DNA of 34,437 bases from Actinomycetes bacterium (GTDB lineage Bacteria; Actinomycetota; Acidimicrobiia; Acidimicrobiales; RAAP-2): positions 1-34,437 of the forward strand of contig JAKATH010000018.1 in the NCBI GenBank assembly GCA_021828055.1, in the 5' to 3' direction. The notes beneath the pieces are model-generated. The model saw nothing but the letters and a program-made list of their open reading frames with translations. It was not told where the DNA came from and did no database searches. Position numbers and translations under genes: made by a program. Shown here one piece after another: positions 4,424-32,468 of the stretch (position 1 is the stretch's first letter; each line of letters opens with the position of its first letter).

Positions 4424-5530
4424 GTGGACACTGTTGTCGACGAAGGCCTCGCCATCAAGTTCGCCACGGAGAGAGACTCTTCCTACGCGCGCTGGGTGGC
4501 CTCGGAGGGACTCGACATCATCAGTGGCCACTATGTGGCCGACCTGAGGGCCATCGAGCTCAAGCCCTGGTCTCGCCGGGGCGGCCGCGGGGTCTTCATC
4601 AACCACGACGCGTCACGCACCTCCAACGACTGCTACGTGTGCGAGATCCCACCAGCCGGAGGGCTCGCACCCCAGCGCCAGCTGTTCGAGGAGATGATCC
4701 TCGTCCTCGACGGCAGGGGCTCGACGAGAGTGTGGAACGACGCGGGACGCCAGGTGAGCTTCGAGTGGCAGGCTGGCTCGATCTTCGCCATCCCGCTCAA
4801 CGCCTCGTACGAGCTGGTGAACCTCTCGGGCGTCGAGCCCGCGCGCTTCGTCTCGTCCACGAACCTCCCGCCCGTGATGAACCTCTATGACGACGTCGAC
4901 TTCATCTTCAACACCTCCCGCGACTTCCCCGAGCGCTTCAGCGGCGAAGCGGACTACTTCGCCCCCAAGCAGGAAACCAAGGGACTCTTGCTCGATACGA
5001 ACTTCGTCACCGACGCTGTCGAGCTTCCGCTGCTCTCGGCCAAGGAACGGGGCGCGGGTGGCGGGCACGTCCGCTTCTCGATGGCGAAGGGCTCGATGAA
5101 CAGCCACATATCCGAATTTCCGGTCGGCACCTACAAGAAGGCTCACCGCCACGGACCCGGCGCACACGTCATCATCCTCTCCGGCCAGGGCTACTCGTTG
5201 ATGTGGTCCGAAGGCGACGAGCCTCAGCGGTACGAATGGGGCCCCGGCTCGCTCATCATCCCGCCAAACATGTGGTTCCACCAGCACTTCAACGTCGGCG
5301 ACACGCCTGCCCGATACCTCGCCTTCAAGCACGAGGGCGTCGCAATCAGGAACTCACAAGGTGTGCCGAAGTCCTGGATCAGCCGTCGCATCGGCGGCGA
5401 CCAGGTCGACTACGCCGACGAAGTCCCCTACATCCGCGAAACCTTCGCCGAAGCTCTCGCGAAGGTCGGGCTGGAGCCGGCCATGGACGCGTCCTACGAG
5501 GCGGAGCTGGCCGACCTCCCGCCACGCTGA
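4424..5530 (+). CDS. Double-cupin protein (bicupin dioxygenase-like) 2
   Basis: A 368-residue paralogue of double-cupin 1, starting at GTG 4424 with an AAAGGAGG site. In the N-terminal barrel the metal residues are lost: PQRQLFEE has Gln86 where paralogue 1 has His, and ASYELVN has Glu in place of His. The C-terminal barrel keeps KAHRHGPGAH (His241, His243, His248) and WFHQHFN (His286/His288). A single-metal enzyme, or a partner subunit of paralogue 1, is therefore likely. The tail (LAKVGLEPAMD) matches paralogue 1 (LAKRGLTPAMG). It is followed after 82 bp by the EutA-like gene. Ring-cleaving dioxygenase activity is inferred from the fold and neighbours. Confidence 0.8.
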   Translation: MDTVVDEGLAIKFATERDSSYARWVASEGLDIISGHYVADLRAIELKPWSRRGGRGVFINHDASRTSNDCYVCEIPPAGGLAPQRQLFEEMILVLDGRGSTRVWNDAGRQVSFEWQAGSIFAIPLNASYELVNLSGVEPARFVSSTNLPPVMNLYDDVDFIFNTSRDFPERFSGEADYFAPKQETKGLLLDTNFVTDAVELPLLSAKERGAGGGHVRFSMAKGSMNSHISEFPVGTYKKAHRHGPGAHVIILSGQGYSLMWSEGDEPQRYEWGPGSLIIPPNMWFHQHFNVGDTPARYLAFKHEGVAIRNSQGVPKSWISRRIGGDQVDYADEVPYIRETFAEALAKVGLEPAMDASYEAELADLPPR

Positions 5531-5612
5531 ACGCGTACCCGAGGACTCCTCGCGCCGCGTGCGCCCGTGACATGGCCAGCTGCATCCGACTCGCGCGCCC
5601 GATCGTCCGGTC

Positions 5613-7136
5613 TTGACCACCTCCCACCCGCACGCTGGAGCCCCGCTCCCGTACCCCGACCACGACCTCGAGGACGAGGACGCGGGACCGCTCGAGGACA
5701 ACCCGATCTGGCAGCAGGAGAACGTCGCTCTCACGACTGTCGGCATCGACATCGGCTCGTCGGGGACCCAACTGGTGTTCTCCGAGCTGAAGCTGCGCCG
5801 CGCCGGGTCCGATCTCGCCACGCGCTACGTCGTGGTCGAGCGCAGGAGTGTCTACGAGTCACCTGTCAGCTTCACCCCCTTCACCGGTGAGGGGCTGATC
5901 GACGGCCGGCTGCTCGGCGAGATCATCGACAGGGCGTACTCGGCAGCTGGCACCGCGCCCGCCTCCGTCGAGACCGGTGTGGTGATCCTCACCGGCGAGG
6001 CGCTGCGCCGCGAGAACGCCGAGCAGATTGCGACGGTCGTCTCGCTCAAGGCCGGCGACTTCGTCTGCGCTGCCGCGGGCCACCACATGGAGGCGCGGCT
6101 CGCTGCGTTCGGCTCGGGCGCGGTGGCGCGCTCGGCGGAGACGAGCGGGCGCATACTCAACGTGGACATCGGAGGCGGCACGACCAAGCTGTCGGTTGCC
6201 GCCAGCGGCCAGGTGATCGCCACGGCGGCACTGTCGGTCGGTGGACGGTTGATCGTCGTCGACGAAGGCAGCCGCGTCGTGCGCCTGGAGGACGCCGGGC
6301 GGGACCGCGCCGCGGCCGCAGGGCTCGAACCACACCTCGGATCCCAGTTCTTCCCGGATCAGCGCCGCGCGGTCGCTGAGTCGATGGCGGACGTGCTCGT
6401 CGCCGCGCTGTCTGGCATGTCCGAGACGGTCCCCTACCTCACCGAACCGATCGGCGCGCTCGACGCGCTCGACGGCGTCGTCTTCTCCGGCGGGGTGAGC
6501 GAGTACCTCTACGGCCTCGAAGACCGGGACTTCGGCGACCTCGGACCGGGGCTCGCTGCGGCCATCGCAGATCGCTTGGCAAGCGGCGAGATCGGCCTTG
6601 CGTTGCTCCCTGCGGCCGCCTGCATCCGGGCAACCGCGCTCGGCGCCTCGCAGTTCAGCGTCCAGCTGAGCGGCAACACCTACTTCGCTTCGGATCCAGC
6701 GAAGTTGCTGCCCCGACGCAACCTGCCCGTGGTCCGGCCACCGATCGATCTGGGCGACGAGGTCGACGTCGAAGTCGAAAAGCTCGCTTCGAGCATCGCA
6801 CACCACCTGCACGCCTTCCTTGCCGACATCGAGCAGGATTTCGTGCTGGCGCTCAGCTGGTCAGGCGAGATCTCCCACGCCCGGTTGTCCGCCCTGGGCC
6901 GGGCAGTCACGCTCGGCCTCGGCGAGCGACTCGGCAACGACCGACCGATCCTCCTGGCACTTGACGCCGACATCGCAAAGAACCTCGGTCACCTGATGCG
7001 AGACGAGCTGGGCATCCACGCCGATCTGCTCGTGCTCGACGGGCTCACCTTGCTCGACTTCGATTACATCGATCTCGGCCGACCGCGCCAACCCTCCGGC
7101 GTCGTGCCGGTGACGATCAAGTCGCTGGTGTTCTGA
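5613..7136 (+). CDS. eutA: EutA-type reactivating factor
   Basis: A 507-residue protein of the ethanolamine ammonia-lyase reactivase family, an ASKHA-fold ATPase that swaps inactive cobalamin out of the adenosylcobalamin-dependent lyase. Supporting motifs: GIDIGSSGTQLVFSEL near residues 44-59, NVDIGGGTTKLSV near 183-195, LSVGGRLI, VFSGGVSEY, and the C-terminal DYIDLG...GVVPVTIKSLVF typical of EutA. The start is taken as TTG 5613; a 30-residue acidic extension precedes the fold. No eutB, eutC or other cobalamin enzyme is in the window, so the client is unknown. It follows double-cupin 2 on the same strand and faces the binding-protein gene across a 24-bp convergent gap. Confidence 0.88.
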   Translation: MTTSHPHAGAPLPYPDHDLEDEDAGPLEDNPIWQQENVALTTVGIDIGSSGTQLVFSELKLRRAGSDLATRYVVVERRSVYESPVSFTPFTGEGLIDGRLLGEIIDRAYSAAGTAPASVETGVVILTGEALRRENAEQIATVVSLKAGDFVCAAAGHHMEARLAAFGSGAVARSAETSGRILNVDIGGGTTKLSVAASGQVIATAALSVGGRLIVVDEGSRVVRLEDAGRDRAAAAGLEPHLGSQFFPDQRRAVAESMADVLVAALSGMSETVPYLTEPIGALDALDGVVFSGGVSEYLYGLEDRDFGDLGPGLAAAIADRLASGEIGLALLPAAACIRATALGASQFSVQLSGNTYFASDPAKLLPRRNLPVVRPPIDLGDEVDVEVEKLASSIAHHLHAFLADIEQDFVLALSWSGEISHARLSALGRAVTLGLGERLGNDRPILLALDADIAKNLGHLMRDELGIHADLLVLDGLTLLDFDYIDLGRPRQPSGVVPVTIKSLVF

Positions 7137-9814: not shown

Positions 9815-10009
9815 ATGCGGGTTTCGGTGGATCTCGATGAGTGCCTGGGGTACGCGAATTGCGTCGTCGACGCGCCACAGGTGTTCGACATCGTGGAGGA
9901 CGGCATGCAGGTGCACCTCCTGCAGGAGAACCCACCTGAAGAGCTTCGGACCTCAGTCGAGGCGGCGGCGCTCGACTGCCCGGCAAAGGCCATCACGGTT
10001 GTCGACTGA
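9815..10009 (+). CDS. Single-cluster ferredoxin (3Fe-4S/variant 4Fe-4S type)
   Basis: A 64-residue acidic ferredoxin with GAGGGAG upstream of ATG 9815. The cluster motif is Cys10-x5-Cys16 ... Cys55-Pro. The position where a classic 4Fe-4S ferredoxin has its second Cys is Tyr13 (CLGYANC). This is the pattern of the small actinobacterial ferredoxins that serve P450s and oxygenases and usually hold a 3Fe-4S or atypical cluster. It is 36 bp upstream of the Rieske oxygenase and is most likely its electron donor, recharged by the ferredoxin reductase at 18640-19953. Confidence 0.88.
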   Translation: MRVSVDLDECLGYANCVVDAPQVFDIVEDGMQVHLLQENPPEELRTSVEAAALDCPAKAITVVD

Positions 10010-10045
10010 GCGTTCGGAAGTGCAGCCGACGGATCGGGGGGGCTC

Positions 10046-11332
10046 ATGCTGACCTCGCAGGTCAACGAGCTGCTGACCCGCACCGGCCCCAGCACTCCCA
10101 TGGGCGCCTTGTTCCGCCAGTACTGGATCCCGGCGCTACTGGCCGAAGAGCTGCCCAAGAACGCCTGTCCCCCGGTGAGGGTGAAGCTGCTGTCCGAGCG
10201 GATGATCGCCTTCCGTGACTCGGAGAGCCGGCTCGGGCTCCTCGACGAGTTCTGCGCCCACCGTGGCGCGTCCTTGTGGTTCGGCCGGCCCGAGGAGTCC
10301 GGGATCCGGTGCGCGTACCACGGGTGGAAGTACGACGTGCAGGGCAACTGCGTCGAGATCCCGTCCGAGCCCGAGGGCAGCACGTTCTGCACCCGTATCA
10401 GGCTGACCTCGTACCCGCTCGTGAAGGTGGGCGACATCCTGTGGACGTACATGGGCGATCCCGCACACCGCCCGCCGCTCCCCGCCTTCGAGTTCGCCAC
10501 GGTTCCCGCCGAGCAGACGTACACCTCGAAGCGGTGGGAGGAGTGCAACTGGCTGCAGGCGCTGGAGGGCGGCATCGACTCCAGCCATGTCTCGTGGCTC
10601 CACTCGACGGGTCTCACCACAGATCCGCTGTTCGAAGGTTCGCGAGGCAATGACTACAACCTGCGGGACCTGCGGCCTTACTTCGAGGTGCGCGAAGCGC
10701 CGTTCGGTCTGTACGTAGGCGCACGCCGCAACGCCGACGACGGCCGCTACTACTGGCGGGTCACGCCGTGGATCATGCCCAACTTCACGATGGTTCCGCC
10801 GCGAGCCGACCATCCGCTCCACGGGCACTTCTGGGTGCCGATCGACGACGAGAACTGCTGGGTCTTCAGCTTCGACTACCACCCCACCCGTCGGCTCTCC
10901 GAGGGAGAGCTCCAGGCCATGAAGGACGGCCACGGAGTCCACAACCAGTACGTGCCGGGCACCTACCGCCCGCTCCAGAACAAGGACAACGACTACCTCA
11001 TCGACCGTGAGGCGCAGCGGCGTGGAGAGACGTACTCGGGTGTGCGCGGCATCGCAATGCAGGACGCAGCCATGCAAGAGAGCATGGGACCGATCGGCGA
11101 CCGGACTAGGGAGCGTCTCGTCGCCACCGACGTCGGGATCATGAAGGCGCGGAACATGCTGCGCAACGCTGCCCTCGCGCTGCGCGACCATGGGACGGTG
11201 CCGCAGGGCGTGACACCGGAGCACCACCTGGTCCGTTCGTTCGCCGTGGTGTTGCCGAAGGAGCAGTCCTACATGAGCGTCGTCGGCGATGCGGCGGCGG
11301 CGCGAGCAGGCAAGCAGCACGTGTCGGTCTGA
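10046..11332 (+). CDS. Rieske oxygenase, phthalate 4,5-dioxygenase-like oxygenase subunit
   Basis: A 428-residue Rieske non-heme iron oxygenase. The Rieske site is Cys70-x-His72 ... Cys89-x2-His92. The catalytic iron site is in EGGIDSSHVSWLHS (Asp178, His181, His186). The N-terminal TRTGPSTPMGALFRQYWIPALL is characteristic of the phthalate 4,5-dioxygenase/vanillate demethylase group, which acts as homo-oligomers without a small subunit. It dihydroxylates or demethylates an aromatic ring using electrons from a ferredoxin, here probably the gene just upstream. The two dihydroxyphthalate-decarboxylase-family genes in the window fit a phthalate-like pathway, but the substrate is inferred. Start ATG 10046 follows a G-rich site. 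Confidence 0.9.
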   Translation: MLTSQVNELLTRTGPSTPMGALFRQYWIPALLAEELPKNACPPVRVKLLSERMIAFRDSESRLGLLDEFCAHRGASLWFGRPEESGIRCAYHGWKYDVQGNCVEIPSEPEGSTFCTRIRLTSYPLVKVGDILWTYMGDPAHRPPLPAFEFATVPAEQTYTSKRWEECNWLQALEGGIDSSHVSWLHSTGLTTDPLFEGSRGNDYNLRDLRPYFEVREAPFGLYVGARRNADDGRYYWRVTPWIMPNFTMVPPRADHPLHGHFWVPIDDENCWVFSFDYHPTRRLSEGELQAMKDGHGVHNQYVPGTYRPLQNKDNDYLIDREAQRRGETYSGVRGIAMQDAAMQESMGPIGDRTRERLVATDVGIMKARNMLRNAALALRDHGTVPQGVTPEHHLVRSFAVVLPKEQSYMSVVGDAAAARAGKQHVSV

Positions 11333-11333
11333 C

Positions 11334-11876
11334 GTGCAGCGCCATCAGATCCTGGCCAGTAGCTGCGCTCGTGCCACCTCGGCAGAGGAGGCCCAGTACC
11401 GGATCGCATCGCCGATCGAGGACCGGCGGGCGACGGCGGTGGTCGCTCTCGACCCGCCGGCGCGGACGATCGTCGACGCCAGCCGGCACAGGCATTCGGC
11501 TCGAGTCCGGTTCATGACGTGCGAGGGAGCGAACGTCCACGCGTCGTCCGCAGACGGCAATGGGCACCTGGCGGGGCACCCGGCCACGCACGCCGTGGCG
11601 ACCGGGGATCCCGACGGACCGGCGCGCCCGCTGGCCGACGCAGTTGCCGGGGCGGACCTCGTCGTGATGGTCGCCACCTCACCTGCCGCTGGCGCCGCCG
11701 CGGCGACGATCGGGCACTGGTGCGCCGAACGGAAGATCATGACCGCCGGTCTCGCCGTCGGCCCCCACGAGGGGGCGGACGGCACGGCGGCGGCGTTGCG
11801 CCCATACGCCCGCATGCTGCTGGTCACCGAGGACGCCGGCGACCTCGACGAGATACTGACCGCCCTCCGGGCATGA
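11334..11876 (+). CDS. Unrecognised 180-residue protein coupled to the PanB-like gene
   Basis: A GTG at 11334, one base after the Rieske stop codon, opens a 180-residue frame ending in an ATGA overlap with the PanB-like gene. A shorter version could start at ATG 11514. I do not recognise the family. The C-terminal 70 residues look like a nucleotide-binding-type alternation: ADLVVMVATSP, then an Ala/Gly-rich helix, KIMTAGLAVG, RMLLVTEDAGD, and a final helix LDEILTALRA. The tight coupling on both sides says it is translated with the oxygenase and the PanB-like protein, and it may be a subunit or chaperone of the latter. Confidence 0.6.
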   Translation: MQRHQILASSCARATSAEEAQYRIASPIEDRRATAVVALDPPARTIVDASRHRHSARVRFMTCEGANVHASSADGNGHLAGHPATHAVATGDPDGPARPLADAVAGADLVVMVATSPAAGAAAATIGHWCAERKIMTAGLAVGPHEGADGTAAALRPYARMLLVTEDAGDLDEILTALRA

Positions 11877-12790
11877 GGAGGACGGCAGAGCTCCCGCAGG
11901 AGAGCCGACCCGACGCGATGACGGATGACCGAGTGCCCGACGACAAAGTGACGTTGGCCCGGCTGTCCAGCATGAAGCGCAGCAGCGAGAAGATCGTGGG
12001 CGTGGTGGTCTGGGACTACCAGCTCGCTCTGATCGCCGACCGGGCAGGCGCCGACGTGGTGGTGGTGGGCGACTCCGTCGGCACCAACCTGTGGGGGCAC
12101 GCTACGCCGTTCGAGGTGACGATGGACGAGATGCTCGTGGTCTGCCGAGCCGTGCGCCGCGGCGTGCGGCGGGCGCTGCTCATCTGCGACTTCCCGTTCG
12201 GGCCGCTCCAGGAGGGAGCGGCGAGCGCCGTCCGGAGCGCCGTCCGCCTGGTGAAAGAGGGTGGCGCCGACATGGTGAAGCTCGACGGCGCCGTCGACTT
12301 CCCCGACGCGGTGAGCCAGGTCGTGCGGGCTGGCATCCCGGTCATGGCACAGTTCGGCATCACCCCGCAGTCGGCGCTGCGACATGGCTTCGACTACGTG
12401 CAGCTGTCCCGGCCAGGGGCGGAAGTGACGCCGGCCATGGCCGAAGAGCTGGTCGCCGACGCCAAAGCGCTGGAGGAAGCCGGGGCGTCGTTGCTGGACT
12501 TCACCAACTCCGGGCCGGCCGTGGGACCGCGCGTCGCCCAGGCTGTGTCGATCCCGGTCGTCGGCGGCTTCGGCGGCGGCCCGTGGCTCGACGGTCGTAT
12601 CCGCATGGCCCACGCCGCCATCGGCTACGCCGCCACCGGCATCGACGAACCTCCGGACACCTACGCGAACGTGGCGCGCACGGCCTACGACGCCCTCCGG
12701 GCGTACGCCGCCGACGTCCGGTCGGCGCGACAGATCCGAGGGGGCCTCCCCGCGGGTGCGGCAAGCCAAGAGACGAGGGCCAAGCGTTGA
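11873..12790 (+). CDS. PanB-like (ketopantoate hydroxymethyltransferase superfamily) with altered active site
   Basis: A 305-residue TIM-barrel protein of the PanB family; ATG 11873 overlaps the previous stop (ATGA), with ATG 11918 an alternative (numbering below from 11918). VVGDSVG (Asp52), CDFPFG (Asp91) and MVKLDGA (Lys121) keep the metal and substrate positions. Other residues differ from the known enzyme: the Glu of K-x-E is Asp123, the His of GHLGLTPQS is Gln145 (AQFGITPQS), and the proposed catalytic Glu of LxLEC becomes Thr196 (LDFTNSG). The neighbours are a ring oxygenase and a hydrolase, not panC or panD. A catabolic aldol/retro-aldol or C-C bond role is more likely than pantothenate synthesis, but this is inference. 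Confidence 0.8.
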   Translation: MRRTAELPQESRPDAMTDDRVPDDKVTLARLSSMKRSSEKIVGVVVWDYQLALIADRAGADVVVVGDSVGTNLWGHATPFEVTMDEMLVVCRAVRRGVRRALLICDFPFGPLQEGAASAVRSAVRLVKEGGADMVKLDGAVDFPDAVSQVVRAGIPVMAQFGITPQSALRHGFDYVQLSRPGAEVTPAMAEELVADAKALEEAGASLLDFTNSGPAVGPRVAQAVSIPVVGGFGGGPWLDGRIRMAHAAIGYAATGIDEPPDTYANVARTAYDALRAYAADVRSARQIRGGLPAGAASQETRAKR

Positions 12791-13659
12791 GCGGTACCAC
12801 GGCGTTCGCCGACGCTGGAGGGATCGCCACCCACTTCCAGGTGGTCGGCTCCGGACCGCCAGCCCTCTTCTTGGCGCCCGGCGGCTTCAACGCCACCATG
12901 GAGAACTGGTCCACGCTGGGCAAGTACCGTGAGCTTCAGTTGGTGCGCCACGTAGCCGAGCGGCACACCTGCATCCTGTTCGACCGGCGAGAGGCAGGCG
13001 GCTCCGGCGGTCGCGTCGAGCGCTTGACGTGGCGACGCTACGCGGAGCAGGCGCTGGGGCTCTTGGACCACCTGGGCATCGACCAGGCCGACGTGGTGGG
13101 AGGCTGCGCCGGTTGCTCGGTGGCACTCGCCTTGATGACCGCCGACCGGGCGAGGGTCCGGCGCGCCGTCCTCTACTGGCCGGCGGGCGGCGCCAAGTAC
13201 CGGATGAGCCAGCAGGCGCGTTTCGCCCGGCACCTTGCCTTCGTAGACGACGAGGGACTCGCCGGCGTGGTCGCGCTCTCACGACGCACCGATCGGAGCT
13301 TCTCCGAAGAACCTCGGGTCGGACCGTGGGCAGGGCCCCTGCGTGCCGACCCCGAATTCGCCAGTGGCTACTCGGCGATCGACCCCGTCCGCTATCGGAC
13401 CCTGGTGGCCGGGACGGCGCGCACGCTGTTCGACCGCGACACCGTCCCAGGTGCCGAGTCGGAGGACCTGCTGACGCTCGACGTGCCTTCCCTCGTCGTG
13501 CCCGGCCGCGACGACTCCCACGCCACCTCGGCAGCGCGGTACCTCGAAGAGTGCCTCCTCCAGTGCAGCTACCTCGACGCCACGGTGGAGGAGCAGACCG
13601 AGGACCGGGTCGCTGACGCCGTGCTCGGCTTCCTGGCTGCCCGAACAGACCGGTCCTGA
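12787..13659 (+). CDS. Alpha/beta hydrolase with Cys nucleophile
   Basis: A 290-residue alpha/beta-hydrolase. The start is taken as TTG 12787, which overlaps the stop of the PanB-like gene (TTGA). LAPGGFNATMENW is the oxyanion-side loop. The nucleophile elbow reads GGCAG (Cys107) where Ser is usual, as in dienelactone hydrolase. VPGRDDSHATS supplies the acid/His region. Cytoplasmic; likely cleaves an ester, lactone or C-C bond in a ring-cleavage product, given its place after the oxygenase and PanB-like genes. Several actinobacterial hydrolases share this GGC-x-GC elbow, so the Cys is probably genuine. Confidence 0.8.
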   Translation: MSGTTAFADAGGIATHFQVVGSGPPALFLAPGGFNATMENWSTLGKYRELQLVRHVAERHTCILFDRREAGGSGGRVERLTWRRYAEQALGLLDHLGIDQADVVGGCAGCSVALALMTADRARVRRAVLYWPAGGAKYRMSQQARFARHLAFVDDEGLAGVVALSRRTDRSFSEEPRVGPWAGPLRADPEFASGYSAIDPVRYRTLVAGTARTLFDRDTVPGAESEDLLTLDVPSLVVPGRDDSHATSAARYLEECLLQCSYLDATVEEQTEDRVADAVLGFLAARTDRS

Positions 13660-13673
13660 GGTCGTCGACGCAA

Positions 13674-14960
13674 GTGGAAGCAGGCTCCGAGAGCACGGCG
13701 TCTGCGGTGCCGGCAGGTTGGCGACGCGGCGATCGCGAGCAGGTCGCGGTCGTCTCGTTCTCTCACACGATCCAGCACGCCTACGTCGCGGTCCTCGGAA
13801 TCGTCTACCCGTTCGCGCTCGCCGACTTCCACGTCTCCTATGCGGTGCTCGGCGTCGTCCTCAGTGTCGCCGGCATCGTCGGCGGGCTTCTCCAAGGCCT
13901 GGCGGGGTTGGTGAAGAAGTACTCGGCTCGGGTCCTGCTCGGCTGTCAGAACCTCGGCATCGCGCTCGCCAGCGTCCTCGGCGCGCTCTCACCGGGAATG
14001 GTCGTGTTCTCCGCCGTGCGGATCTTCGGCACCCTGGTCAGTTGGCCCCAGCACCCGGTCGGCAGCGCGCACCTGACCGATCGGGTTCCCCATCGCCGGG
14101 GGCTCGTCCTCTCGGCGCACACGACGGGCGGCAACGTCGGCACGCTCGTGGCGCCGCTCGCCGCCTCGGCAGCGATCGCCGCCTTCAGCTGGCGATGGGC
14201 CCTTGCCGGAGCCGGCATGGTGATGGCGCTCGGGTCGATCGTCACCTGGACCCGGGTGCGCCCGGGCCCGGACGGCGCAGCCCGCCACGACAGTCCCGCC
14301 CGCCCGGACGGCGCAGCGGAACGGGGCGTGACGGCACGTTCGCACGGCAGCTTGCGCTCCGCGCTCCGCCGTCGGAAGGCCGTCGCGGTCCTCGGGGCAG
14401 GCATGATCTCGGGCGCGGGCCGGGGGCTTGGCGTGCTCACCATCTACGTGCCCGCCTACCTGCGGGACGGCCTGCACGAGCGGGCGCTCACCATCGGGAT
14501 TCTCGTCACGGTCGTGAGCATCGGGGCGGTGCTCGGCCCGATGGTCTTCGGCCAGATCTCCGATCGAGCCGGGCGGCGACCGGTCCTCTACACGCTCTAC
14601 GCCTTCGGGGCGGCGGCGTTGGCCGGTCTCGTGCTCGTCGGCTCGAACGTGCTCCTCTTGGGGCTCGCGGGCCTCTGCGTCGGCGTGTTCAGCTATTCGG
14701 AGCAGCCGGTTCGCCAAGCGCTGTTCTCCGACGCCATGGACGGCGTGCCGGCACGTACTGCCTTCGGCGCGTACTTCGCCATCTCCCAGTCCTTCGGCGC
14801 GCTGTGGATCGCATTGATCGGGCTGCTCGTCACCGACGTGGGGTTCCACGTGGCGTTCTTCGTGATGGCGAGCTCCTTCGTGGCGGCGGGGACGGTGATC
14901 GCCCTCTTCGCCCGGGACCGGACCGTCTCGCAGGCGCGGCCCGAGGTGACTGCGGGCTGA
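13674..14960 (+). CDS. MFS transporter
   Basis: A 428-residue major facilitator protein starting at GTG 13674, 14 bp after the hydrolase. It has about 12 hydrophobic segments and a central charged loop around residues 195-225 (GPDGAARHDSPARPDG...). The second-half motif A, GQISDRAGRRPVL, is clear; the first-half loop is less canonical. It is an inner-membrane uptake or efflux carrier, probably for the substrate or product of the upstream operon, of which it is the last gene. Confidence 0.85.
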   Translation: MEAGSESTASAVPAGWRRGDREQVAVVSFSHTIQHAYVAVLGIVYPFALADFHVSYAVLGVVLSVAGIVGGLLQGLAGLVKKYSARVLLGCQNLGIALASVLGALSPGMVVFSAVRIFGTLVSWPQHPVGSAHLTDRVPHRRGLVLSAHTTGGNVGTLVAPLAASAAIAAFSWRWALAGAGMVMALGSIVTWTRVRPGPDGAARHDSPARPDGAAERGVTARSHGSLRSALRRRKAVAVLGAGMISGAGRGLGVLTIYVPAYLRDGLHERALTIGILVTVVSIGAVLGPMVFGQISDRAGRRPVLYTLYAFGAAALAGLVLVGSNVLLLGLAGLCVGVFSYSEQPVRQALFSDAMDGVPARTAFGAYFAISQSFGALWIALIGLLVTDVGFHVAFFVMASSFVAAGTVIALFARDRTVSQARPEVTAG

Positions 14961-14984: not shown

Positions 14985-15896
14985 CTACCGGATCGCCAGG
15001 CGGGCCCGGACCTCGCTGGCCAGCTCGACCGAGCGGGCGGCGACGTCGGGCGTGCCGGTCATCGGACGGATCATGATGTCGGTGAACCCCAGCTCGCGAT
15101 AGACGACGAGTTGCTCGGCCACCGAGTCAGGGTCGCCGTAGGCGACCGCGGTTCGGTCGAAACCGCGGTACCCGGCCGCCATGAGGGTGTCGCCCGTCTT
15201 CTCTGCTTGCGCCCGCGACTCGGCGATGAGGACGTCTTTCCGGATGGGGACGCGGACCGGCTCCCGTCCGTGGCGAGCGCATGCCTGGCGGTAGCGGTCC
15301 AGGACCTCGGCCGCCGTCTGCGGCGTGAGATCGGCGTTGCCGTACCAGCAATCCCCAAGGCGTGCCGCCCGATCGACCGCCACCTCCGCGGTGGCGCCCA
15401 TCCACCACTCGACGCCCCGAGGAGGAAGGGGCGCGACGCGGGCGTGCTCGACACCCCACATCTCACTGCTCACCTCCTCGCCGCGCAAGAGCGCCTGGGC
15501 GATCCGGAGACCCTCCTCGATCCGCCGGCCTCGTTGCGAGAGCGGAGCGCCCATCGCCCGGGACTCCGACTCGACGTCCCCAACACCGGTCTGGACGACG
15601 AACGGCCCGGCGGCCAAAGCCGCGAGGGTCGCGATCTGCTCGGCCATGAGGACCGGGTGCCACATCGGCACGATGAAGAGACAGCCCACTGGCCGGGAGT
15701 CCCATTCGGCGAGCAGCCGCCCGATGGTCGGCACGTTCTGGAAGTAGCTGGTGGAACCGGTCCCGTGGTGGTCGCCGACCGTCAGCTCGTCGAGGCCGGC
15801 CTGGTACGCGGCCCGTGCCTGGGCGATGATCGAGCGCGGCCCCACGGTCGGGTCGCCTGTGGCGAACGCCGTCCTGACGGAGACGCCGATTCGCAT
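14985..15896 (-). CDS. LLM-class (luciferase-like) oxidoreductase
   Basis: A 303-residue TIM-barrel protein of the luciferase-like monooxygenase family: MRIGVSVRTAFATGDP at the start, GLDELTVGDHHGTG, PVGCLFIVPMWHPVLMAEQIATLAALAAGPFVVQTGVG, WWMGATAEVAVDRAARLGDCW. In actinobacteria these use F420 or FMN. Its ATG shares one base with the RpiB stop (TGATG), so the dehydrogenase, RpiB and this gene form a coupled three-gene unit. Substrate unknown. Confidence 0.87.
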   Translation of the reverse strand: MRIGVSVRTAFATGDPTVGPRSIIAQARAAYQAGLDELTVGDHHGTGSTSYFQNVPTIGRLLAEWDSRPVGCLFIVPMWHPVLMAEQIATLAALAAGPFVVQTGVGDVESESRAMGAPLSQRGRRIEEGLRIAQALLRGEEVSSEMWGVEHARVAPLPPRGVEWWMGATAEVAVDRAARLGDCWYGNADLTPQTAAEVLDRYRQACARHGREPVRVPIRKDVLIAESRAQAEKTGDTLMAAGYRGFDRTAVAYGDPDSVAEQLVVYRELGFTDIMIRPMTGTPDVAARSVELASEVRARLAIR

Positions 15897-16402
15897 CAGC
15901 GTCGAATCCCGGCCCGGGTGGGCGCCATCGTCTGCAGCTCCTCACCCCGCTCGATGGCGGCGATCTGGTCGAGCCTTGTGCGGTGCCGCCCGCCCTTGAA
16001 GGGGGTCGACAGCCAGACGGACAGGATCTCCCGAGCCATCGCCGGGGTGACCAGCTTCGTCCCGAGAACGAGAACGTTGGCGTCGTTGTGGCCCCGGGCG
16101 ATCTCGGTGGCGAGCAGGGAGTGGCACGTTGCCGCCCGGATGCCTCGCAGCTTGTTGCAGGCGATCTGCTCGCCCTGGCCGCTACCGCCGACGACCACCC
16201 CGAAGTCGGCGTCACCGGCCTGCACCAGCCGCCCGACGTCGACGCAGAGGGGCGGGTAGTCCACCACCTCGTCGCCGTCGGTACCGCGGTCGTCCACCTG
16301 GTGCCCGCGCGTCACCAGCCATTCGACGAGCTCCGCCTTGAGGGCCACCCCGTTGTGGTCGGCGGCGATGGCCACCCTTCGCCCGCTCTCGAGTCCGGTC
16401 AT
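15896..16402 (-). CDS. RpiB/LacA/LacB family sugar-phosphate isomerase
   Basis: A 168-residue protein of the ribose-5-phosphate isomerase B family. IAADHNGVALK is the phosphate/substrate strand. GGSGQGEQIACNK carries Glu78, the base seen in actinobacterial RpiB, where E. coli-type enzymes use Cys. RGHNDANVLVLG holds the ring-opening His105. ATG 16402 overlaps the dehydrogenase stop (ATGA); an in-frame ATG at 16414 is a less likely start. In this operon it may isomerise an unusual sugar-like or hydroxyacid intermediate rather than ribose-5-phosphate, an inference from the neighbours. Confidence 0.88.
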   Translation of the reverse strand: MTGLESGRRVAIAADHNGVALKAELVEWLVTRGHQVDDRGTDGDEVVDYPPLCVDVGRLVQAGDADFGVVVGGSGQGEQIACNKLRGIRAATCHSLLATEIARGHNDANVLVLGTKLVTPAMAREILSVWLSTPFKGGRHRTRLDQIAAIERGEELQTMAPTRAGIRR

Positions 16403-17514
16403 CGCTCTTTCCATGGCAAGAGCGAGACGTGGACGACCCCGTCGTCCTCTCCGCCTCCGACGGCTTTGATCGCGCGGTCGACCTCGTCCAGCCCGAAGGT
16501 GTGCGTCGTGAGCCTTTCGAGCGGGAAGCGGCGCGAAGCAAGCTGAGCGAGTGCGAGCTCGCAGGCACGGTAGCTGTGGCCACGGGCGCTCTTGAGGGTG
16601 ATCGCCTTCTCGGTGACCGTCTTGATCGGGAAGTCGGGGAAGGCGGCCATCTCGCCTTGGACGACGAGGGTGCCTCCTCGACGCCGCAACGCCGCGATCC
16701 CCAGCAGCACCGGGGCGGTGCCGGCACCAGCGGTGCAGTCCAGCACCACGTCCACCCCGGTCCCTCCGGTGACCTCGTGGATCCGCTCCAGCGGGTCCTG
16801 GCGGTCGACGTCGACGACCTCGTCCGCGCCGAGCGTCCGGGCGAGCTCGAGCCGTGCGGCGTCCCTCGCCGTCCCAGTGACGACCACGAGAGACGCCCCG
16901 GCCTGTCTGGCTGCCACCACCTGCGACAGCCCCTGCTGGCCCGGCCCCTCGACGAGCACGCGCGAGTTGCACCCCACGCCGCCGTCGAACAGCGCCCATT
17001 CGATGCCGTTGGACAACGGGGTCACGATGCCCGCCAGCTCTGCGGTCACCCCGTCGGGCACCCTGTGCAAGACCGCGTTCCACGGCAGGTAGAGGTAGTG
17101 CGCGAAGCCACCCCACAGGTGGTGCGGGTGCTCGGCCGAGGTGTACCCGTATCGCCGGGCGTCCGGGTTGGTGCGCCAGTCGGTGGCCCCGCAGTGCCGG
17201 TACTCGCCCCGATGGCACCACTCGCACCGCCGGCAGGGCACGTAGTGCTCCACGAAGACCCGGTCGCCCTCGGTGAATCCCTGACGCTCGGCGAACACGC
17301 GGCCGACTCGCACCAGGGTCCCCACGTTCTCGTGCCCCATGATGACCGGTGCCGTGAACGGCGGCGCGCCGTACATCTTCACGTCAGTCCCGCAGATGCC
17401 GGCCACGTCGACACGCAGCAGGGCTGCGTCCTCGGGGACGTCGGGCATCGGGAACTCCCGGAGCTCGGTCGTGCCCGGTGCGGTCCGAACGGCGGCCAGC
17501 ACCTGTTCGCTCAC
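16399..17514 (-). CDS. Zinc-dependent medium-chain alcohol dehydrogenase
   Basis: A 371-residue MDR dehydrogenase, GTG start 17514 with GGAGGGATCA upstream. Catalytic zinc: Cys41 (GICGTD) and His61-Glu62 (GHE). Structural zinc: Cys94, Cys97, Cys100, Cys108. The nucleotide-binding loop is EGPGQQGLSQVVAARQAG, followed by LGADEVVDVDRQDPL. It oxidises an alcohol or polyol with NAD(P)+ in the cytoplasm. First gene of the dehydrogenase-RpiB-LLM unit, divergent from the decarboxylase-family gene at 17648; the shared control region holds two operator-like repeats. Confidence 0.9.
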   Translation of the reverse strand: MSEQVLAAVRTAPGTTELREFPMPDVPEDAALLRVDVAGICGTDVKMYGAPPFTAPVIMGHENVGTLVRVGRVFAERQGFTEGDRVFVEHYVPCRRCEWCHRGEYRHCGATDWRTNPDARRYGYTSAEHPHHLWGGFAHYLYLPWNAVLHRVPDGVTAELAGIVTPLSNGIEWALFDGGVGCNSRVLVEGPGQQGLSQVVAARQAGASLVVVTGTARDAARLELARTLGADEVVDVDRQDPLERIHEVTGGTGVDVVLDCTAGAGTAPVLLGIAALRRRGGTLVVQGEMAAFPDFPIKTVTEKAITLKSARGHSYRACELALAQLASRRFPLERLTTHTFGLDEVDRAIKAVGGGEDDGVVHVSLLPWKER

Positions 17515-17647: not shown

Positions 17648-18616
17648 GTGGCCGACGGGAAGGTTCGACTGAAGACGGTGACCCGCACCCAGGGCGCCAA
17701 CCGCGCCCTCAAGAACGGGTCCGTGCAGCCTTACCGGGCGACCCTCGAATTCGAGGAGGTGCCGGTGCTTGTGCATGCCTTCCGCAGGATGGTCCGCCAG
17801 CTGGAGTTCGATGTCTGCGAGATGGCCTTCACCACGTACCTGTGCGCCAAGGCCTTCGGCGTGCGGATGACGGCCCTGCCGGTGTTTCTCGTGAGGGGCT
17901 TCCACCACGGGGCCATCGTCAGGCGATCCGACGGGCCCCTACGCGAGCCGGCCGACCTGGTGGGCACCCGAGTCGGCGTGAACCGGGGCTACACCGTGAC
18001 GACCGGGGTGTGGGCGAGGGCGATCCTCGCCGAGGAGCATGGCGTCGACCTCGACCAGATCACGTGGGTGGTTTCCGACGACGACCATGTCGCGGCCTAC
18101 AGCCCTCCGCCCAACGTGGTGCCGCTCGACCCGGGGCAAGAGCTCGACGAGCTGCTCGAAAACGGGGCGCTTTCCGCCATCGTCGGTGCCACTGCACAGC
18201 CGCCGGACACCGAACCCTTCATCCCTGAGCCCGAGGAGGCGGGCTTCCGCGCGCTGGCCCAACGGGGCTTCTATCCGATCAACCACACGATCGTCGTGCG
18301 TGACGAGCTGCTCGACGACGATCCCGCGCTCGCCGCCGATCTGTTCGAGGCGTTCGCTGAGGCCAAGAGCCGCTACGTGGAGCAGCTGCACCGGCCGGTG
18401 GCCGGCGGCACGGCGGACGACGGCGCCGCCGGCCCAGACGTCATCTACCGGCGCGTCATGGAGATCACGGGTGGCGACCCGCTCCCCTACGGGATCCAGC
18501 CCAACTGCGCGATGATCGAGAAGCTCATCGATCATGCGCTGCGTCAGCGCATCCTTCCGGAGCCGCCGGCCGTCGACGCCCTGTTCGCACCGGCAACCAG
18601 GAACCTTGTCGGCTGA
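17648..18616 (+). CDS. 4,5-dihydroxyphthalate decarboxylase family protein 1
   Basis: A 322-residue protein, GTG 17648 with GAGGGGAG upstream. The order of features matches the dihydroxyphthalate decarboxylase (Pht5/OphC) family, which has a periplasmic-binding-like fold: FDVCEMAFTTYLCAKAFG, LPVFLVRGFHHGAIVRR, the loop EPADLVGTRVGVNRGY-x-VTTGVWARAIL, and the C-terminal DPLPYGIQPNCAMIEKLIDHALRQRIL. There is no signal peptide, so a cytoplasmic enzyme is more likely than a binding protein. The 17339-17647 part of the longer open frame is not coding. A paralogue is at 30156. Confidence 0.8.
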   Translation: MADGKVRLKTVTRTQGANRALKNGSVQPYRATLEFEEVPVLVHAFRRMVRQLEFDVCEMAFTTYLCAKAFGVRMTALPVFLVRGFHHGAIVRRSDGPLREPADLVGTRVGVNRGYTVTTGVWARAILAEEHGVDLDQITWVVSDDDHVAAYSPPPNVVPLDPGQELDELLENGALSAIVGATAQPPDTEPFIPEPEEAGFRALAQRGFYPINHTIVVRDELLDDDPALAADLFEAFAEAKSRYVEQLHRPVAGGTADDGAAGPDVIYRRVMEITGGDPLPYGIQPNCAMIEKLIDHALRQRILPEPPAVDALFAPATRNLVG

Positions 18617-18639: not shown

Positions 18640-19953
18640 TCAACGGCGAACAGCAGTCGCGAGCTGCGACACAGTCGCCACGGCGTCGCCGACCCCGGCT
18701 CCCGACGCGGTCAGCCGGCGGCAGTCCACGCTGGCCCGTGGCCAGTTCACGGTGACGGCCCCTTCCAGGTGGCCGCCCTCGCCGGCGAAGAGCGCCGCCC
18801 AGCGGGGCGGTGTCTGCTCGGGATCGCCCACAAGATGGTGCTCCACCCCGCGGAGCGGACGCCCGACGATCTGGATCTTCCAGTCGTACTGATCGCTCCA
18901 GACGTACTCCACCGGGCGATGCGGTCGCAGGTCGTCGGGATGGGTGATGTTGTGCGCGACGCATGCCGCCTGCTCGACCGCGTTGGTCCAGTGCTCGACA
19001 CGGGTCGTTTCCCCGTGCCCGGGGTGCAGCCAGCGGGCAACATCCCCCGCGCACCACACGTCCCGAGCGTCGACAGCCCGGCAGAACTCGTCGCACAGTA
19101 TGCCGTCGTCGACAGTCAGGCCCGACCCGACGAGCCAGGGGTCGTTCGGGAGCGCGCCGATCCCGACTACCGCGACGTCGGCACGGAGCACGCGGCTGTC
19201 CGTCAGTCCGACCTCGATCCGTCCTTCCTCTCCCTCGAGCGACGCCACGCCCACGCCGAAGCGGGTCGCGACTCCATGCCGGGTGTGGACGGTCTCGAGC
19301 AGCTGCCCGACCTGGTCTCCAACGACGCGCGACGCGGGCGCCGTCAGCGGGTCGACAACCGTCACCCGGCACCCGAACGACGTTGCGGCCGCGGCCACTT
19401 CCGCCCCGATGAACCCCGCGCCGACCACTACCACCGAGCGGCCGGCTCGAAGGCTCCCCCGGAGCTGATCGCTGTCACCACGCGTTCGCAGGAGGTGAAC
19501 CCCCGAGCGGGCAGCCCAAGGCGACGGCCGCGCCGATGCACCCGTGGCGATGACGCACGCGCCGTAGTCGAGGAACGATGTGTCCGACACGTGCACGCGG
19601 TGACCGGCCACGTCGAGCTGGGTGGCCGCAACACCCAACCGAAGCTCGACGCCGATCGACGCCGCTCCCTCCGGGGTGAGCAGCTGGAGCTTTGCCTCGT
19701 CGTAGTGGCCGGTCAGGTACTGCTTGGAGAGCGGAGGCTTGTCGTACGGCAGCTCCTGCTCGTCCCCGACGAGGGCGATTCGCCCCACGAACCCCTCGCG
19801 CCGCAACGCCTGGGCGGTGCGAACCCCGGCCACCGACGCGCCGACCACCACCACGCGGGCCGGCGGCTCCGTGGCCCGGTCAGCGCGCAGGATTCCTGCC
19901 TTGCTGCGGCGAGCCGAGATGCGCCTGCGTCGTGAACAGGACTGCCTCCTCAC
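18640..19953 (-). CDS. Ferredoxin reductase (FAD/NAD(P)H, oxygenase-type)
   Basis: A 437-residue pyridine-nucleotide oxidoreductase of the ferredoxin reductase class serving Rieske oxygenases and P450s. FAD motif VVVGASVAGVRTAQALR near residues 34-50, the DKPPLSKQYL signature, NAD(P)H motif VVVVGAGFIGAEVA, the second FAD site DVWCAGDVA, then VEHWTNAVEQA. It passes electrons to the ferredoxin at 9815, inferred because no other ferredoxin is present. The first 30 residues are Arg-rich and not conserved, so GTG 19953 may be too early; no better ATG is available. It follows LivF by 95 bp on the same strand. Confidence 0.87.
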   Translation of the reverse strand: MRRQSCSRRRRISARRSKAGILRADRATEPPARVVVVGASVAGVRTAQALRREGFVGRIALVGDEQELPYDKPPLSKQYLTGHYDEAKLQLLTPEGAASIGVELRLGVAATQLDVAGHRVHVSDTSFLDYGACVIATGASARPSPWAARSGVHLLRTRGDSDQLRGSLRAGRSVVVVGAGFIGAEVAAAATSFGCRVTVVDPLTAPASRVVGDQVGQLLETVHTRHGVATRFGVGVASLEGEEGRIEVGLTDSRVLRADVAVVGIGALPNDPWLVGSGLTVDDGILCDEFCRAVDARDVWCAGDVARWLHPGHGETTRVEHWTNAVEQAACVAHNITHPDDLRPHRPVEYVWSDQYDWKIQIVGRPLRGVEHHLVGDPEQTPPRWAALFAGEGGHLEGAVTVNWPRASVDCRRLTASGAGVGDAVATVSQLATAVRR

Positions 19954-25855: not shown

Positions 25856-26452
25856 GTGCGCGCGCTCGATCCCGAAGTGGTCGATGCCGTCTGGGCGGCC
25901 GTCGCGCGGCTGATCCCGCCCCATCCAGAGAGCCACCCGCTCGGACGGCACCGCCGACGCAAGTCGGACTTCGAGTGCTCCGCGGTGCTGCTCGTCGGGC
26001 TCGAGACCGGATGCTCGTGGGAGACCGGATGCTCGTGGGAGACCGGATGCTCGCGGGAGACCGGATGCTCGCGGGAGACCGGATGCTCGCGGGAGGACGC
26101 CGAACGGCTCTGCGGCGGGAAGGTTTCCGACACGACGGTGCGATCCCGACGCGACGAGTGGCGCGCAGCCGGGGTCTTCCCCGCCGTCGGCGAACAAGCC
26201 GTCACCGCGTACGACATAGGCATCGGGCTCGCTCTGGGCGACGTCTCGGCTGATGGTTCCTTGCACAAGAGTCCTTGTGGCCGTGAGGGAGCTGGGCCCA
26301 ACCCGACCGATCGGGGCAAGCTCGGGTGGAAGCGGTCGATCCTCTGCGACGAGCACGGGACTCCGCTCGGTGTCGCCATCGACGGGGCGAACCGCGTCGA
26401 GCGGACCAGCGTCTGGCTCTCGCCGCCAACCTCATCGACTGGATTGCGGTAG
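25856..26452 (+). pseudogene. IS5-like DDE transposase, internally deleted, with repeat expansion
   Basis: GTG 25856 with GGAGGTG upstream opens a 198-residue frame. LDPEVVDAVWAAVARLIPP, EDAERLCGGKVSDTTVRSRRDEW and KLGWKRSILCDEHGTPLGVAIDGANR follow the order of IS5-type transposases, the last being a DDE catalytic strand. GANR is directly followed by VERTSVWLS, which in the family occurs much later, so the middle of the catalytic domain appears deleted. The expected tail (LALAANLIDW) is then found in another frame, indicating a frameshift. Near residue 50 a six-residue unit, ETGCS(W/R), is repeated five times. Clearly non-functional; the exact family is from memory. Confidence 0.65.
26003..26092 (+). 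repeat. Tandem repeat, 18 bp x 5
   Basis: Five head-to-tail copies of GAGACCGGATGCTCG(T/C)GG. The first two have T and the last three C at the variable base. The unit keeps frame inside the broken transposase. Confidence 0.95.
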
Positions 26453-30155: not shown

Positions 30156-31139
30156 TCAGATGACCGCGGTCTCGAGCGTCTCCCTGGCGAACAGCTCGGC
30201 GGGCTCGTTGAGCCGGTCGCTGAGATGCTGCTCGTGCAGGTAGCGGAGGAACGTGCGGAGCACGTGCTCGTTCGGTGCGAGCCCGTAGGGCCAGAAGTCC
30301 TCGCCCATCAGCGCCCTTGCGTCCCGCACCTCTTCGTAGCCCCACGGCAGCATGGTGGCCATGGCCGCCGTCTCGGCCAGCCGCACCTCGGCCAGCCGCT
30401 TGGCTTCGACGAAGGCGTCCATGAGCGACCGTGCGAGCCACCTGTCCTGCTCGTAGACGTCCCGGCGCAGCGCGAGGACGTGCATGATCGGGAACACCCC
30501 GGTCGCCCGGAAGTACTCGCGTTCAGCGGCCGGGCTGTCTCGCCACAGCCGCCGTACGGCTGGGTGCCCGGCGGCGAACGGCGACGGGAGCCGGGGGGCG
30601 TACAGGGCGTCGATCTCCCCGGTCACGAGCAGCTCAGAGAGCGTCCGATCGGGATCGATGGGCTCGATCGCCACGCCGGGAACGTCGACAGCCAGCTTCT
30701 CGACCCGGCCCGGGGACTCCAGGCCGCCCGTCCGGTAGGACACGGACTCGACCGGCACCCCGTAGTGCTCGGCCAGCATGCCGCGGATCCACACCACCGC
30801 CGTCAGCTGGTACTCGGGCACGCCGACGATCCGCCCGCGCAGATCCTCGGGCTCGGTGATGCCGGAGCCGGCGTGGACGTACACCCCGTTGTGCCGAAAC
30901 GCCCGCGAGGGGAAGACCGGGAGAGCGACGAACGGCGCTGTACGCGAGAGGCTGATCACGTACGTGGAGAGCGAGAGCTCAGCCGCCTCGAACTCGCCGA
31001 AGCGCGCCATGCGGAAAAAGATCTCCTCCACCGCCATCGAGAGGTACCGCAGATCGACGCCGTGGGGTCGGACGCGGCCGTCGGCCAGTGCTGCCGTCCG
31101 GTCGTAGTCCCAGCAGGCGAGGGTCAGCGGCCGCCTCAT
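30156..31139 (-). CDS. 4,5-dihydroxyphthalate decarboxylase family protein 2
   Basis: A 327-residue paralogue of the gene at 17648. ATG 31139 (MRRPLTLACWDYDRT) is chosen because the family starts close to this strand; an upstream in-frame ATG (31223) adds 28 unconserved residues. Family features: GVDLRYLSMAVEEIFFRMARFGEFEAAELSLSTY, LPVFPSRAFRHNGVYV, EPEDLRGRIVGVPEYQ, YAPRLPSPF, and the C-terminal FWPYGLAPNEHVLRTFLRYLHEQHL. No signal peptide. Cytoplasmic non-oxidative decarboxylation of a dihydroxylated aromatic diacid is the family activity. It is divergent from the IclR regulator. Confidence 0.87.
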   Translation of the reverse strand: MRRPLTLACWDYDRTAALADGRVRPHGVDLRYLSMAVEEIFFRMARFGEFEAAELSLSTYVISLSRTAPFVALPVFPSRAFRHNGVYVHAGSGITEPEDLRGRIVGVPEYQLTAVVWIRGMLAEHYGVPVESVSYRTGGLESPGRVEKLAVDVPGVAIEPIDPDRTLSELLVTGEIDALYAPRLPSPFAAGHPAVRRLWRDSPAAEREYFRATGVFPIMHVLALRRDVYEQDRWLARSLMDAFVEAKRLAEVRLAETAAMATMLPWGYEEVRDARALMGEDFWPYGLAPNEHVLRTFLRYLHEQHLSDRLNEPAELFARETLETAVI

Positions 31140-31607
31140 GCGGGCGATGTGCTGGTCGAACCGACGCCAGTGGAGATGGCTGCAGCCATGCACGCTCCTT
31201 GCTTGGTCGCTGTTGCTCGACAAGCGCCAACCCTCCAGATGACCTGGCTCGGCGTGGAGGGGTCGATGTGGCGGAAGGCACCGTCGAGCTCTTTGGGTGT
31301 GCCCCGCTCAGCTGCCCCGGTTGCTCAGCGATCGCTCCGGAACATCCACCTGATTGTAGATCTCCCCCGCGCCGCGGCGGGTACTGCGATGCGCGAAGTG
31401 CACACCGGCATCGATGAGAGCGACGACGTCGAGCGACCGCGCCTGCGCGCTTCGCTCGATCGGGGCCGCCCCCGGGAAGCGATCGAGGTGCCGGACGGCC
31501 AGAAAACCCTCGAGCTGCGCCGCTTCCACCGGTGCCACCTCCGGCGGCAACGCCGTTCGCTTGCTCGGCGCACGGCACCGGCCGGCGCGGCATTACGATT
31601 GCCGTCT
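31140..31607. other. Divergent region between decarboxylase-family gene and IclR regulator
   Basis: A 468-bp gap. An 80-residue minus-strand frame (31550-31308) ends GEIYNQVDVPERSLSNRGS and has fair GC3, but no recognisable domain and no clear ribosome site. It may be a small unknown protein or chance. Promoters for both flanking genes must lie here, but none stands out. Confidence 0.35.
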
Positions 31608-32438: not shown

Positions 32439-32468
32439 TCGGCTCCCCTGATCGGCTCCCCTGATCGG
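32411..32468 (+). repeat. Tandem repeat, 13 bp x 4.5, spanning the IclR stop codon
   Basis: GATCGGCTCCCCT occurs four times head to tail (32411, 32424, 32437, 32450) plus GATCGG (32463). The IclR stop codon (32436-32438) lies at the junction of copies two and three. All full copies are identical, which suggests recent expansion. Confidence 0.97.

Follow-up and report, generated by a model that had tools for sequence, protein, structure and literature searches.

What does a protein of the PanB family do in a catabolic operon, where its gene lies downstream of a Rieske oxygenase and overlaps that of a hydrolase, and how much of the known PanB chemistry could it still perform there? The question is raised by a stretch of 34,437 nucleotides (the window), which is contig 7 of a 2.6 Mb actinobacterial genome, 84% complete.

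Organization of the locus

The operon occupies positions 9815-14960 and is read in one direction, in the order ferredoxin, Rieske oxygenase, P0001, the PanB-like P0002, hydrolase P0003 and MFS transporter. Downstream of the MFS gene lie an RpiB-family isomerase, an MDR dehydrogenase, a protein similar to 4,5-dihydroxyphthalate (DHP) decarboxylase and a ferredoxin reductase, and a double-cupin and EutA-like pair is found upstream (4424-7136). The features are given below, with locus counts that refer to the P0002-type loci described in a later section.

4424..5530, + strand: CupB, double-cupin protein (Cupin_2), paired with the EutA-like gene; 25 of 80 loci, 20 of 43 long loci
5613..7136, + strand: EutA-like actin-fold ATPase (PF06277, 342 bits); 22 of 80 loci
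9815..10009, + strand: small ferredoxin that probably passes electrons to the Rieske oxygenase (Fer4_15 / Fer4_13)
10046..11332, + strand: Rieske oxygenase alpha subunit, 47% identical to isophthalate dioxygenase (9ina, 443 bits)
11334..11876, + strand: P0001, truncated homologue of the FtsZ N-terminal domain ("mini-FtsZ"); GTG start, 180 aa
11873..12790, + strand: P0002, PanB-like protein with the KPHMT fold (PF02548, 221 bits); annotated ATG start
12787..13659, + strand: P0003, alpha/beta hydrolase with nucleophile Cys107 (PF00561, 34.6 bits); TTG start
13674..14960, + strand: MFS transporter (PF07690, 154.6 bits)
15896..16360, - strand: RpiB-family isomerase (NF004051, 149.6 bits, above cut-off); 20 of 80 loci
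16399..17514, - strand: MDR (Zn) dehydrogenase, candidate dihydrodiol dehydrogenase (Tdh/IolM-like, under cut-offs); 55 of 80 loci
17690..18616, + strand: DHPdec1, DHP-decarboxylase-like protein (PDB 9jp7, E 3.6e-25); 58 of 80 loci
18640..19953, - strand: ferredoxin reductase-like FAD/NAD protein, read from the sequence; relatives in 25 of 80 loci
30156..31223, - strand: DHPdec2, second DHP-decarboxylase-like protein; 32 of 80 loci

The two DHP-decarboxylase-like proteins fall into one conserved group across 68 loci. CupB has a weak match to gentisate 1,2-dioxygenase and is a possible ring-cleavage dioxygenase; ethanolamine ammonia-lyase (EutB) was not found in 10 of 11 cluster genomes, the window's own genome included. 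An earlier, sequence-only reading of the locus had the coordinates and gene order right, and had described P0001, P0002 and P0003 as joined by overlaps. As annotated, both junctions overlap by four bases. The P0002/P0003 overlap stands; that of P0001 and P0002 is uncertain, because most homologues of P0002 start near its residue 16-25, and the true start may be, and probably is, the ATG at 11918.

The active site of P0002

Pfam assigns P0002 to Pantoate_transf with 221 bits, and its AF2 model is a KPHMT barrel, with the best match to 1o66 (Z 31.9 over 229 residues, 2.1 A); other members of the PEP/isocitrate-lyase superfamily score clearly lower, at Z about 17-18. Identity to canonical PanBs is 28-38%, and the protein remains below the NCBIfam cut-offs for PanB (TIGR00222, 165.9 against 207.55 bits; NF001452, 202.7 against 272 bits). 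With PanB/KPHMT (EC 2.1.2.11; PDB 1m3u, 1oy0, 1o66, 3ez4 and 3vav) P0002 shares the fold, the metal-binding Asp pair, the Lys and the Asp of the DG motif, but it has DGR for DGQ, one extra residue before the GFGGG loop, and catabolic neighbours.

In E. coli numbering, the metal ligands Asp45 and Asp84 are retained as D67 and D106, and Lys112 as K136; all three are invariant in 81 members of the P0002 clade and in 25 canonical PanBs. Three other positions are replaced. Glu114 has become Asp (D138 in P0002; 81 of 81 clade members), His136 has become Gln (Q160; 80 of 81), and Glu181 has become Thr (T211; 78 of 81, with Gln in the other three), and none of these changes is seen in any of the 25 canonical PanBs. 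These calls rest on alignment to solved PanBs and on the counts of 81 against 25. The retained Asp pair and Lys and the Asp, Gln and Thr swaps had all been called correctly from the sequence, and the Glu and His that a proper alignment might have put back at the catalytic positions were looked for and are absent. Judged from the alignments, the swaps are not a matter of chance. N72, W74 and R242 are further marks of the clade (alignment of 79 sequences), and the residue signature of P0002-type proteins is KLDG, AQFG, FTNSGP and GGPWLDGR.

Glu114, His136 and Glu181 are what we take to be the transfer-end residues of E. coli KPHMT. P0002 might still be a hydroxymethyltransferase that uses methylene-folate with a new 2-oxo-acid acceptor or donor, as its clear KPHMT fold and metal site would allow, but as each of the residues normally assigned to the transfer end is replaced throughout the clade, and no folate-linked gene was recognised among the recurrent neighbours, we hold this to be improbable.

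A separate clade of PanB-like proteins

When 84,980 species were scanned with a profile, 192 relatives of P0002 emerged, and the best 80 of these 192 (at least 58% identity) were retained; they span Actinomycetota, Proteobacteria, Acidobacteriota and Chloroflexi. Four orthologues, 62-68% identical to P0002, were found among 396 genomes of the phylum. In a maximum-likelihood tree of 27 clade members and 25 canonical PanBs, the latter drawn from one phylum, the P0002 clade is split from the canonical enzymes by a branch with 100/100 support. The tree proposed in the sequence-only reading as a check thus shows a distinct clade, set among Rieske and hydrolase genes. The window's genome has, on a different contig, a second PanB of the canonical type (342 bits). 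Searches of further genomes from the same genus and family yielded no more than one PanB-family match per genome, at ~32-40% identity.

Could P0002 nevertheless be a PanB copy of the ordinary kind, drifting or redundant, that came into the cluster by accident? The overall fold and the 28-38% identity to canonical PanBs are all that speaks for this, whereas conservation of at least 58% over four phyla, fixed changes, the same adjoining genes and a canonical PanB encoded elsewhere by the host speak against it. We give it a negligible chance, and regard an ordinary PanB as ruled out by the swapped residues, the separate clade and the second, canonical PanB of the host. The earlier suggestion that the PanB fold has been put to a new use, through neofunctionalisation, is in contrast well supported, because the active-site changes are fixed, the clade is monophyletic, the neighbours are catabolic (Rieske oxygenase, hydrolase and decarboxylase genes), and the canonical PanB is encoded separately.

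Genes that accompany the PanB-like gene

A core catabolic gene is present in 78 of the 80 loci, the remaining two being short pieces. Counted by blastp over the 80 loci, many of which are truncated, the hydrolase is found in 68, DHP-decarboxylase-like proteins in 58, the Rieske oxygenase in 56, the dehydrogenase in 55, an amidohydrolase homologous to oxalomesaconate (OMA) hydratase in 46, RraA in 43 and P0001 in 41. As the most constant neighbour of the PanB-like protein, P0003 is the better candidate for the step adjacent to that of P0002. Its Cys nucleophile, already recognised in the sequence-only reading, is C107 in the motif GGCAGC; about 99% of the 67 homologues compared have it, and D242 and H245 are invariant among them.

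In related loci the amidohydrolase is a close homologue of 4-oxalomesaconate hydratase (2gwg, 546 bits), and the RraA of the clusters resembles carboxy-hydroxy-oxoadipate aldolase. RraA or HpcH is present in 27 of 43 long loci and the two never co-occur; HpcH/HpaI aldolase can substitute where RraA is missing. An idea suggested by a Phyllobacterium plasmid, that RraA is a non-homologous replacement of the PanB-like protein, was discarded, as the two are found together in 21 of the 43 long loci; the true swap is RraA for HpcH. The aldolases and the hydratase homologue suggest that many hosts have an oxalomesaconate tail, with a close LigJ homologue and RraA or HpcH in related loci, as in the protocatechuate 4,5-cleavage and gallate pathways (LigJ/GalB, LigK/GalC). 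The counterparts of these enzymes are, however, absent from the window, and such a tail cannot be assumed for it, because neither RraA nor a close OMA hydratase was found in its genome (84% complete). In several alphaproteobacterial loci the PanB-like gene is directly preceded by genes for a RidA protein and an extradiol dioxygenase of the LigB type; no one ring-cleavage enzyme recurs in all of the clusters.

Rhizobial clusters retain the Rieske oxygenase, mini-FtsZ, hydrolase, dehydrogenase, OMA-hydratase homologue and RraA, and no PanB-like gene was found in these clusters or on the same replicon; the PanB-like protein is therefore dispensable in some versions of the cluster.

This inventory bears on whether P0002 may be a tautomerase or isomerase, which would enolise a 2-oxo acid and reprotonate it elsewhere, in a role like that of LigU or GalD before oxalomesaconate hydratase. 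The enolising half of PanB is retained and the transfer half lost, and the OMA-hydratase homologue occurs in 31 of 43 long loci, yet the PrpF family (LigU/GalD fold) is absent in 6 of 12 cluster genomes searched, all of which fits a tautomerase. The fit is spoiled by PanB-like genes that have no OMA hydratase nearby (loci L054, L079 and L102, and the window), by the rhizobial clusters, which have the hydratase homologue and no PanB-like gene, and by RpiB, an equally good isomerase candidate in ~20 loci. We consider a tautomerase rather unlikely.

The Rieske oxygenase and its probable substrates

The nearest solved relative of the Rieske oxygenase in the window is the isophthalate dioxygenase of Comamonas testosteroni KF1 (9ina). 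According to PMC12445078, R234 and H257 of that enzyme hold the two carboxylates of the substrate, and their substitution abolishes activity, while V178 and F249 restrict which isomers fit. Both carboxylate anchors are retained in all 56 Rieske relatives from the clusters. The window enzyme differs from its solved relative at two positions, with Arg for F249 and Asn for L198, and 55 of the 56 relatives have the same two changes. We infer from these residues that the substrate would be a meta-dicarboxylated aromatic compound with one more anionic group near the position of F249; trimellitate-like compounds would be compatible with this. Validated genes for isophthalate-type oxygenase operons are found only in Comamonas (PMC13040137), and the available part of PMC12445078 names no FtsZ-like or PanB-like gene in the Comamonas iphA2CBA1 cluster. 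In the literature searched, no paper connects Rieske, phthalate or oxalomesaconate genes with PanB, EutA or FtsZ as they are connected here, and none deals with trimellitate degradation.

P0001, a truncated FtsZ domain

The sequence-only reading had called the 180-residue P0001 an unrecognised protein. This holds as far as families are concerned, since Pfam and NCBIfam scans gave no usable match, but not as far as ancestry is concerned: predicted structure and a bridging sequence identify the N-terminal domain of FtsZ. The AlphaFold model, built with 40 homologues, has pLDDT of 81.5, and above 90 across most of the core. The leading Foldseek matches are FtsZ, as are all 50 among the matches listed by VIA (Z 10.8-12.4), the best of which (Z 12.4, 129 residues) places P0001 30-179 onto FtsZ 10-198. 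Direct comparison of the P0001 family with FtsZ by hhalign is weak (probability 35%, E 4e-4). The bridge is a 185-aa protein of another genome (G274), which is 40% identical to FtsZ (5e-18), matches PF00091 (Tubulin/FtsZ) with 45.3 bits against a cut-off of 33, and is aligned by hhalign to the P0001 family profile with E 8e-10. The same genome additionally encodes full-length FtsZ, and in 36 relatives the same query retrieved FtsZ solely as reading frames of ordinary length (about 300-390 aa). Bridging sequence and predicted structure together settle the FtsZ kinship of P0001.

The mini-FtsZ proteins, 150-190 aa long, stop at the end of the N-domain and have no C-terminal domain with its T7 loop. 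The GGGTGTG loop is missing in every short form compared, and the T1 glycines are replaced in P0001 and its relatives. P0001 thus has the fold of the FtsZ N-terminal (GTPase) domain, to which its homology runs via the bridging sequence, and differs from FtsZ in its length (about half), in the absence of the GGGTGTG and GxGGxGxN loops, and in its place in catabolic operons. On the model and the alignments, it is a truncated, degenerate FtsZ N-terminal domain, and it is probably GTP-blind. In the records examined the protein is annotated as hypothetical.

The suggestion that P0001 is a dedicated partner of the PanB-like protein has to be given up. In 45 of 58 cases P0001 lies immediately downstream of the Rieske gene, and it is retained in the PanB-free clusters on rhizobial plasmids. 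The G274 short form adjoins an MDR dehydrogenase and a related Rieske oxygenase, and a divergent mini-FtsZ is found in a Rhodococcus plasmid operon, in the order Rieske, zinc dehydrogenase, mini-FtsZ, reductase, adjoining terephthalate-type genes. Because the association with the Rieske gene persists where PanB is absent or located elsewhere, P0001 belongs to the oxygenase/dehydrogenase module and not to PanB.

A possible role in the catabolism of aromatic polycarboxylates

We propose, with confidence evenly divided, that P0002 is a neofunctionalised PanB (KPHMT) fold in a cluster for aromatic polycarboxylate catabolism, where it would act as a 2-oxo-acid enolate enzyme. The Rieske oxygenase, with ferredoxin and reductase, would attack an aromatic acid bearing two meta carboxylates and, probably, a further anionic group. 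Rearomatisation of the product and loss of carboxyls would fall to the MDR dehydrogenase and the DHP-decarboxylase-like proteins, and the ring would then be opened. P0002 would bind the resulting 2-oxo acid via Mg2+ on the retained Asp pair, with the Lys and Ser/Thr residues gripping it in the manner of PanB with ketoisovalerate. The half of PanB that holds Mg and the 2-oxo acid is presumably the one retained, and the half for hydroxymethyl transfer the one lost. P0002 would form the enolate and, as the His136/Glu181 end is gone, would exchange no hydroxymethyl group with folate. The enolate could then undergo either C-C cleavage (retro-aldol or retro-Claisen) or keto-enol or allylic isomerisation, and the neighbouring Cys hydrolase P0003 would handle an adjacent step. 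The C-C cleavage of a ring product suggested in the sequence-only reading may therefore be what P0002 performs, but a tautomerase role would fit equally well. P0001, its GTP loop gone, would serve the Rieske/dehydrogenase part. The PanB-free rhizobial clusters, the lack of RraA and of a close OMA hydratase here, and the lack of a constant ring-cleavage enzyme are points against this explanation.

The cleavage branch can be made more specific, with P0002 as a retro-aldol C-C lyase that would run the PanB reaction in reverse, without folate, and split a branched 2-oxo acid with release of formaldehyde, glyoxylate or pyruvate. The aldol reaction of PanB is reversible; P0002 retains the metal site and Lys while the Glu181 end is altered, and its structural relatives 2-methylisocitrate lyase and dimethylmalate lyase, of the same superfamily, cleave C-C bonds. 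However, an aldolase (RraA or HpcH) is already present in most complete clusters, and a second one would need a separate step; such a lyase is possible, if doubtful. Within the PEP/isocitrate-lyase superfamily, 2-methylisocitrate lyase, 2,3-dimethylmalate lyase and oxaloacetate acetylhydrolase combine Mg-bound 2-oxo-acid enolate chemistry with a similar barrel, but they are distant in sequence from P0002, which is derived from PanB.

Returning to the enolate enzyme, we tentatively suggest, at somewhat less than even confidence, that the cluster as a whole encodes an undescribed route for aromatic polycarboxylates, for example benzene tricarboxylates or hydroxylated forms of them. In this route the PanB-fold enzyme, with a new activity, would process the ring-opened 2-oxo acid, and the GTP-blind FtsZ domain would be an accessory subunit or chaperone of the Rieske/dehydrogenase system.

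Implications

PanB is regarded as an enzyme of vitamin synthesis with one function only, and genes of the P0002 type match its family by overall similarity despite their swapped catalytic residues. The signature KLDG/AQFG/FTNSGP/GGPWLDGR allows such genes to be recognised. The mini-FtsZ is the more surprising part of the locus, a short FtsZ without the GTP loop that has been kept in aromatic-acid operons of several phyla. If its role is confirmed, the FtsZ/tubulin fold would have been recruited to small-molecule metabolism, and mini-FtsZ would provide a cheap marker for isophthalate-type oxygenase operons.

Gene content of the related clusters

Two aldolase families alternate in clusters of this type: an HpcH/HpaI aldolase occupies the place of RraA at L042, L055, L056, L057, L075, L103 and L117, and none of the 43 longer loci used for gene-content counts contains both. 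Many proteobacterial clusters have a CobW-type metallochaperone gene directly 3' of the MDR dehydrogenase gene (L097:13044-14129 and similar loci), an arrangement that suggests dedicated delivery of metal.

Betaproteobacterial clusters also carry a gene, c12, for a conserved protein of about 99 residues without a Pfam match (L050:1978-2277 and similar loci), located ahead of the decarboxylase and PanB-like genes. Actinobacterial forms of the cluster repeatedly include a phosphoglycerate-mutase-like gene (L039, L067, L078, L083 and others; 15 of the 43 longer loci), for which no role in an aromatic pathway is evident.

A plasmid-borne set of genes was found in Rhodococcus pyridinivorans P23:

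L131:10001-13987 (plasmid pA), Rieske, zinc dehydrogenase, mini-FtsZ (short FtsZ N-domain homologue) and PDR/VanB reductase genes

The Rieske protein of this locus is 57.6% identical, and terephthalate-type genes adjoin the set, which is a candidate isophthalate operon of Rhodococcus.

Other features of the window

The window contains two tandem repeats, the first of them close to a recombinase-like gene:

26003-26095, tandem repeat, 18 bp x 5.2, 98% identity
26612-29179, large serine-recombinase-like gene
32390-32468, tandem repeat, 13 bp x 6.1

An EutA-like ATPase gene and a double-cupin gene are paired at 4424-7136, as they are in about 20 of the 43 longer related loci:

4424-5530 (+), double-cupin gene
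5613-7136 (+), EutA-like ATPase gene

EutB, the ethanolamine ammonia-lyase, is missing from 10 of the 11 cluster genomes searched, including that of the window; the EutA-like ATPase of the window must therefore have some other role.
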